From the NCBI GenBank assembly GCA_018710945.1, contig DVIW01000039.1:1-64000 (forward strand): 64,000 bases of DNA. The letters run 5' to 3'. The notes beneath the pieces were generated by a model that saw only the letters and a program-made list of their open reading frames with translations, did no database searches and was not told the DNA's origin. This DNA comes from Candidatus Aphodovivens avistercoris. GTDB taxonomy: Bacteria; Actinomycetota; Coriobacteriia; Coriobacteriales; Eggerthellaceae. How positions within the stretch are numbered: the stretch's first letter is position 1; each line of letters opens with the position of its first letter. Shown in pieces: positions 23,127 through 46,459 of the stretch. Position numbers and translations under genes: made by a program.

Positions 23127-23366
23127 CCCCAACAAACAGCTTTTTTGCTATTTCGACTAGGTTTTTGCGAATCTTGGGGTGCCGGAGGCCTTCGAACGCG
23201 GGTTTCGCAGCCAACGAGAGGAAGCTGTGCGCGCTGGAATTTTCCCGACCTGGGGTTTTGCGGGCTGCTGCGCCTTCGGCAACGCACCGATGGCGCTCGC
23301 GAGGGCTTTGCGACCCCAACTTTCGCGTTTTTCGTTTCGAAATCTCACTTTTGCTGTTTGTTGGGG
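23127..23366. repeat. dispersed imperfect-palindrome element, copy A
   Basis: A 240-bp element bounded by perfect 14-bp inverted ends CCCCAACAAACAGC / GCTGTTTGTTGGGG. Inner blocks are also inverted relative to each other (ATTTCG, TTTTTGCGAATCTTGGGG on the left against CCCCAACTTTCGCGTTTTT on the right), with a conserved central CGACCTGGGGTTTTGC. A second copy lies at 46221-46459. It occupies the gap between the divergent APC permease and cupin genes. No transposase or convincing target-site duplication is seen. Confidence 0.85.
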
Positions 23367-46220: not shown

Positions 46221-46459
46221 CCCCAACAAACAGCTTTTTTGCTATTTCGGATACATTTTTGCGAATCTTGGGGTGCCAACGGCTCCCAAACGCCGTTTTT
46301 CCCGCCAACAGGAGGGTGCCACGCGCGCCGTGTTTTCTCCGACCTGGGGTTTTGCAGATCGAAGCTCCTTCCATGGCGTCCGACAGCGCTTTCTGAGGCC
46401 TCGCAACCCCAACTTTCGCGTTTTTCGCTCCGAAATATCAATTTTGCTGTTTGTTGGGG
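46221..46459. repeat. dispersed imperfect-palindrome element, copy B
   Basis: A 239-bp relative of 23127-23366 with the same 14-bp ends CCCCAACAAACAGC / GCTGTTTGTTGGGG. The first 29 bp and last ~20 bp are nearly identical, CGAATCTTGGGGTGCC and CGACCTGGGGTTTTGC are identical, and the loops between them have diverged. The 1-bp length difference and divergent interior mean reading frames are not conserved, so it is a DNA or RNA element rather than a gene. It lies upstream of cas3. Confidence 0.85.

Follow-up and report, generated by a model that had tools for sequence, protein, structure and literature searches.

The MITEs Correia/NEMIS, RUP and ERIC are small, non-coding, dispersed intergenic elements with terminal inverted repeats; RIP/BIME-1 of E. 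coli consists of two REPs around an IHF site; and in Hin/Gin inversion with its enhancer, as in gal repressor looping, two inverted sites are accompanied by a third, phased site between them. On the side of the enzymes, the Rpn-type PD-(D/E)XK ‘transposase’ nucleases are tied to DNA mobility. In REPIN/RAYT, intergenic inverted doublets with several arm families per genome, a set spacer length and compensatory changes occur as dispersed non-autonomous copies, and the enzyme gene is linked to its own repeats (PMC3116915).

The elements described here were identified in a 64,000-nucleotide stretch of DNA from Candidatus Aphodovivens avistercoris (Eggerthellaceae; contig DVIW01000039.1 of assembly GCA_018710945.1), hereafter the window, and in related genomes. 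Like the repeats described in PMC3116915, they are inverted doublets in extragenic DNA, with an enzyme gene lying among its own palindromes. They differ from REPIN/RAYT in that the partner is a PD-(D/E)XK-like rather than an HUH enzyme, every arm family has the same constant box at its centre, and the distances step by helical turns, with private arms of mostly 18–60 bp; REPIN/RAYT as described in PMC3116915 has neither this enzyme nor the constant box nor the helical grid. They are likewise small, non-coding, intergenic and dispersed, with terminal inverted repeats, as are Correia/NEMIS, RUP and ERIC, but no target duplication and no IS-type transposase was found here, and the internal box is conserved across unrelated arms, in helical register. 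With RIP/BIME-1 they share inverted palindromes that flank a site where DNA bending is presumed, whereas the sequences, the hosts and the partner enzyme are others, and the arms vary by family around a constant box. The two inverted sites with a third phased site on the intervening DNA are reminiscent of Hin/Gin and gal; however, no recombinase or repressor was found, and the dispersed copies are unrelated to the function of their neighbours. Finally, as with Rpn, a PD-(D/E)XK nuclease is linked to mobility, but the present family is Vsr/DUF559-like and comes with cognate palindromes. Among open-licence PubMed Central papers, there was no match for the box sequence or for DUF559, palindromes and transposase together, and no description of the box-and-arms helical design was found; term counts in PMC3733652 returned none of six actinobacterial terms.

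The two palindromic copies in the window, W1 (23127–23366) and W2 (46221–46459), lie exactly where the initial annotation had placed them, with the 14-bp inverted ends that it described: both are opened by the exact 14-mer CCCCAACAAACAGC and closed by GCTGTTTGTTGGGG. The copies are 77% identical and agree in their end blocks, in the central CGACCTGGGGTTTTGC and in additional TGGGGT/ACCCCA motifs, so that the conserved terminal blocks and TGGGGT-type internal motifs reported earlier are seen in both. Their parts are listed in Table 1; the arm length of ~26–28 bp in this family is our own reading.

Table 1. Parts of the two window copies (positions in the window), other copies of the same family and nuclease genes adjoining elements (G, genomes, with G000 the genome of the window; C, contigs; L, loci)
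Feature	Position	Strand	Remarks
W1 5' outer arm	23127..23154	+	opens with 14-bp end CCCCAACAAACAGC
W1 5' inner arm	23155..23180	+	terminates in AATCTTGGGGT; inner edge 66 bp 5' of box
W1 central box GACCTGGGGTTTTGC	23247..23261	+	constant part of class
W1 3' inner arm	23313..23338	+	begins ACCCCAACTTTCGCG; 51 bp 3' of box
W1 3' outer arm	23339..23366	+	terminates in GCTGTTTGTTGGGG
W2 5' outer arm	46221..46248	+	
W2 5' inner arm	46249..46274	+	inner edge 66 bp 5' of box
W2 central box GACCTGGGGTTTTGC	46341..46355	+	
W2 3' inner arm	46406..46431	+	50 bp 3' of box
W2 3' outer arm	46432..46459	+	
Non-window copies of the family	contigs C11, C17 (four), C19, C25 (two), C34, C39, C45		
Nuclease genes bracketed by two elements	G006 L384; G086 L386; G084 L380 (arm D); G068 L382		
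Nuclease genes with one element	G084 arm E; G086 L385; G088; G460; G000		

The description of a ‘two-copy’ element proved wrong. There are 19 exact matches to the 14-mer in the 2.45 Mb genome (0 for the reversed control), and BLAST combined with a 14-mer search allowing mismatches yields about 13 copies or remnants, so that the family of W1 and W2 is not a two-copy feature; copies with both ends are 228–293 bp long. A match to the 14-mer in another genome (G012) was set aside as due to chance; CRISPR array-like repeats CCAGTCAGAATGTCACTGCTCCAAAAC adjoin it (L002, 1250–1690). The genome of the window also contains two additional members of the class, L091 (C25:95591) and L089 (C17:138239), whose private arms are different (CGCGCTAATCGGGCGAAACG; CGTGCTAATCG); their register, that is, the 5' gap minus the 3' gap between arm and box, is 15 and 5, the same as in the class.

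When W1 is compared by BLAST with 138 genomes of the family Eggerthellaceae, full copies are found in its own genome only and the central box matches other genera. With at most one mismatch, the box GACCTGGGGTTTTGC is present in 77 of the 138 genomes and 30 of the 48 genera (for the reversed box, 10 matches among the matches listed). Most boxes are flanked by long inverted arms, and elements with the box between such arms are widespread in gut Eggerthellaceae. The arm sequences are entirely different between families, and several arm families coexist in one genome. The arm pattern of group A has 35 matches in G086, 74 in G006 (Enterorhabdus sp. P55) and none in G087 (control, 0). Covariation, for which a check had been proposed in the initial annotation, is detectable in this group: most variable arm columns match within a copy above shuffles (p <= 0.001), with the exception of column 12, and mismatches are more, not less, frequent in the unconstrained middle of the arm. 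In L147, L148, L091 and L139, as in the window family, additional arm copies turn the 5' arm into a hairpin of its own. Tandem box-like sequences were also seen inside ORFs, at 1484 and 1553 of L183 (G006:C112) and at 1464 and 1563 of L208 (G002:C16); these matches represent a protein motif (peptide GKVAKPQV) of a phage- or plasmid-like protein and were not counted as class elements.

The distances between the box and the arms step by one helical turn, and both window copies are on this grid. In group A (n = 35), the arm-to-arm distance is 127 (14 elements), 131 (1) or 137–139 bp (20); the 5' gaps are 46, 56 or 66–67 bp with one exception of 50 (34/35 within 1 bp of 46/56/66.5), and the 3' gaps are 31–32 or 41–42 bp (35/35 within 1 bp of 31/41.5). 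The gap steps are the same in groups B, C and E. In the window family, the inner arms are on the grid (66/51 in W1, 66/50 in W2), with steps to 77 and to 61–63 or 92–95 elsewhere in the family. The register, computed for 68 rows with a repeat score of at least 11 and for 61 with at least 13, is concentrated at R = 0.93 near 10.2–10.4 bp in the latter set. Across 31 independent arm families, each represented by one value that we chose as the first listed, R is 0.95 at 10.2 bp, a value that none of 5000 jittered controls reaches. Among the exceptions, L190, with a spacing of 131, is a true outlier, C17b and C17d, the boxes of which differ at six positions, are off the grid, and the tRNA-adjacent L084 is kept in the arm and register table as an off-grid row. 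Because the distances step by whole helical turns, the geometry of the duplex demands that the sites face the same side of the helix. The elements are thus phased like a protein–DNA assembly, in line with the binding platform that had been suggested as one interpretation of the window copies.

The persistence of this geometry can be gleaned from nine orthologous pairs of elements (eight between G006 and G088, one between G006 and G086), with flanks mostly 91–99% identical. The register is preserved within 1 bp in all nine, the arms changed in concert in seven, and in two the orientation of the box relative to the flanks is opposite, with the register preserved. The interiors of most pairs have drifted near background and are too diverged to prove a simple flip. 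That the geometry, the box and the identity of the arms persist while the rest changes implies either selection in place or copying of arm onto arm.

The orthologous W1 site lacks the element in both same-genus genomes (flanks 82–84% identical), the outcome of an empty-site check proposed earlier, and the family is therefore mobile. Two short conserved motifs flank the empty site, the second one in one of the two relatives; the label ‘promoter-like’ that we attach to them is our own reading. Elements of Enterorhabdus sp. P55 are similarly absent at orthologous places in G086, G087 or G088 (genus g5). No target-site duplication was seen by eye in flanks whose divergence blurs the junctions, and no clean insertion junction was found at the empty sites, the flanks being too diverged. 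Of 58 elements, none falls within a called gene; the neighbouring genes are co-directional in 31 cases, convergent in 17, divergent in 6 and one-sided in 4. The neighbours of 79 elements are mostly ordinary genes, as are most of the 128 neighbour proteins scanned, and nothing suggests a meaning for the nearness of W2 to cas3. Among the 25 commonest families in either neighbour set (128 proteins), there is no transposase family that would supply a DDE transposase partner. The MITE-like mobile element of the initial annotation thus fits a family that is multi-copy, intergenic and empty at an orthologous site, with terminal inverted repeats in multiple dispersed copies.

One neighbour recurs, a protein of 310–390 amino acids with weak C-terminal similarity to the DUF559/MTES_1575 Vsr-type nucleases; these matches are mostly below the Pfam cut-off, with one just over that for DUF559, and there is no PDB match. 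Glu, Asp, Glu and His are invariant in all eight aligned sequences and are presumably the catalytic residues of a PD-(D/E)XK enzyme. The name MTES_1575 occurs in four open-licence PubMed Central papers, and in one of them, PMC3710099, it denotes a Vsr-REase domain. In loci chosen for their elements, a profile search identifies nine nuclease genes, all nine adjoining an element, and four of these lie between two elements that have their private arms in common (Table 1). The 22 control loci contain no such gene in 274,416 bases, and a looser count, with duplicates partly removed, finds none in about 1.06 Mb lying >1.5 kb from any element. Contact with a nuclease gene is, however, limited to about a dozen of some 99 elements, in loci selected for elements. 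In the genome of the window, the nuclease gene, on contig C17, carries a frameshift and extends into a half element; with only this broken remnant adjacent, the window family may have lost its mobility. On one replicon of Collinsella aerofaciens (NZ_OY725717.1), each of the two homologues has a private inverted pair of 38–42 bp arms on its 3' side, and neither arm pair encloses a recognizable box. A circular C. aerofaciens record of 1,785 bp (NZ_OY725722.1, L400) contains a nuclease homologue only, and could be an excised form or an assembly fragment. No homologue was found in phages, nor, with two queries, in viral contigs.

Starting from what is observed directly, namely, copy number, empty sites, box conservation, arm covariation, helical phasing and the location of the nuclease genes beside or between elements of identical arms, W1 and W2 are probably (at a rough probability of 0.6) non-autonomous copies of a mobile duplex-DNA element with a dedicated nuclease. 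By analogy, we read the whole as a REPIN/RAYT-like system in which a PD-(D/E)XK nuclease would replace RAYT. We infer who binds what, the looped complex, the cutting and the route of transposition as follows. In an element composed of an arm, whole helical turns, the constant 15-bp box, whole helical turns and the same arm inverted, the cognate Vsr/DUF559-type PD-(D/E)XK endonuclease would bind both private arms, and a conserved host protein would bind, and probably bend, the box. Closure of the complex would require that arms and box face the same side of the helix, and the closed loop would be needed for cutting and spread. The nuclease would then cut, and the element would spread and occasionally invert in place, with the arms becoming homogenized.

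Several of these observations lend themselves to other interpretations. The hairpin itself might be the functional molecule, as in the large structured RNA proposed earlier, and the covariation of the arms is as expected of one. The arm mismatches, however, comprise 37 G·T and 35 A·C (counted without the outer two columns per arm and without eight loci, namely, L156, L122, L124 and those of the window family), and this absence of a G·U bias, or G·U tolerance, indicates a duplex-DNA architecture rather than an RNA. The distances are, moreover, quantized in duplex turns, no Rfam family reaches the gathering score anywhere in the window, and the elements do not clearly favour one strand with respect to genes (13 vs 18), so that a structured RNA has a near-negligible chance of being correct. 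A DNA inversion switch of the Hin/Gin type, in which a recombinase would flip the DNA enclosed by the arms, with the box acting as recombinational enhancer, could account for the inverted, near-identical arms, the helical phasing and the two of nine orthologous pairs with opposite box orientation and preserved register. Against such a switch, the 25 commonest families in either neighbour set (128 proteins) include no recombinase, and the unconstrained arm middle is richer in mismatches; furthermore, there is no obvious promoter output, because the orientation of the elements is unrelated to the flanking genes and 17 of the 54 two-sided sites lie between convergent genes. This interpretation appears improbable.

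The helical phasing is also compatible with a host chromosome-organizing site, at which a conserved nucleoid protein on the box and a loop between the arms would serve DNA topology or regulation, the nuclease genes being passengers. Placements at divergent promoters are few (6 vs 17 convergent), and the register preserved in 9/9 orthologous pairs while the arms changed in 7/9 looks like selection in place. Yet a housekeeping site would need no arms private to each genome or family, the sites are empty in close relatives, and elements of one arm type enclose nuclease genes; a host site is accordingly considered unlikely. As for REPINs moved by a RAYT (Y1 transposase), the general plan is the same, and there is one Y1_Tnp gene in the genome of the window, with others in genus g5. 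However, an element adjoins the RAYT in none of 20 RAYT loci (two box-like matches are >3 kb off), and two of three RAYTs inspected have different flanking repeats of their own, which leaves this variant with very little credence. As a separate observation, the RAYT genes of Adlercreutzia relatives at L270 (3671–4741) and L273 (4519–5467) are flanked by perfect or near-perfect inverted repeats of their own (GGGGACAGTTCT-type; GGGACAACGGGGACG-type) and represent an ordinary REP/RAYT system that shares these genomes.

The mobile duplex-DNA element with a dedicated nuclease leads to a broader proposal, which is put forward tentatively, at slightly less than even odds: the elements could constitute an unrecognized actinobacterial class of mobile DNA, made of phase-locked three-point elements (private arm, constant box, private arm) that would be moved by dedicated Vsr-fold nucleases, diversified into dozens of families by arm specificity, and would all assemble on one conserved host DNA-bending protein. 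If so, the Vsr-like nuclease would join RAYTs and DDE transposases as a new type of enzyme by which small palindromes spread, and the elements would account for unannotated intergenic repeats in gut Eggerthellaceae. The helical grid makes for a sharp prediction, namely, that a shift of +10 bp works and one of +5 bp does not, and the many natural pairs of enzyme and site would be material for learning how nucleases read DNA.

In a sample of the phylum, the box matches 48 of 396 genomes, and outside the order, most of those inspected are without arms. True elements are present in two Coriobacteriaceae-like genomes (G460 and G526), a name that we assign by kinship and a Collinsella-like nuclease. 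Box matches in Acidobacteria, Myxococcales, Opitutaceae, Streptomyces and Deinococcales, all without long arms, were set aside, as was carriage by phages or plasmids, the viral box matches having no long inverted arms. Searches with blastn gave no match in plasmids for a Gordonia or a Corynebacterium element and none in phages for an element of genus g5, and the Corynebacterium pattern of arm and box had no viral match. Gordonia polyisoprenivorans has four box sites with one arm, and in one Corynebacterium genome (G535), most of the eight box sites lie between one arm; no nuclease homologue was found near the Gordonia and Corynebacterium elements (0/9 loci, L390–L398). A second Corynebacterium genome (G534) has 16 box sites in a more complex arrangement: at L350, L356 and L374, many copies of the box are embedded in nested repeats GTTTTGCTGACCTAACATCGCCA, unlike the simple elements.
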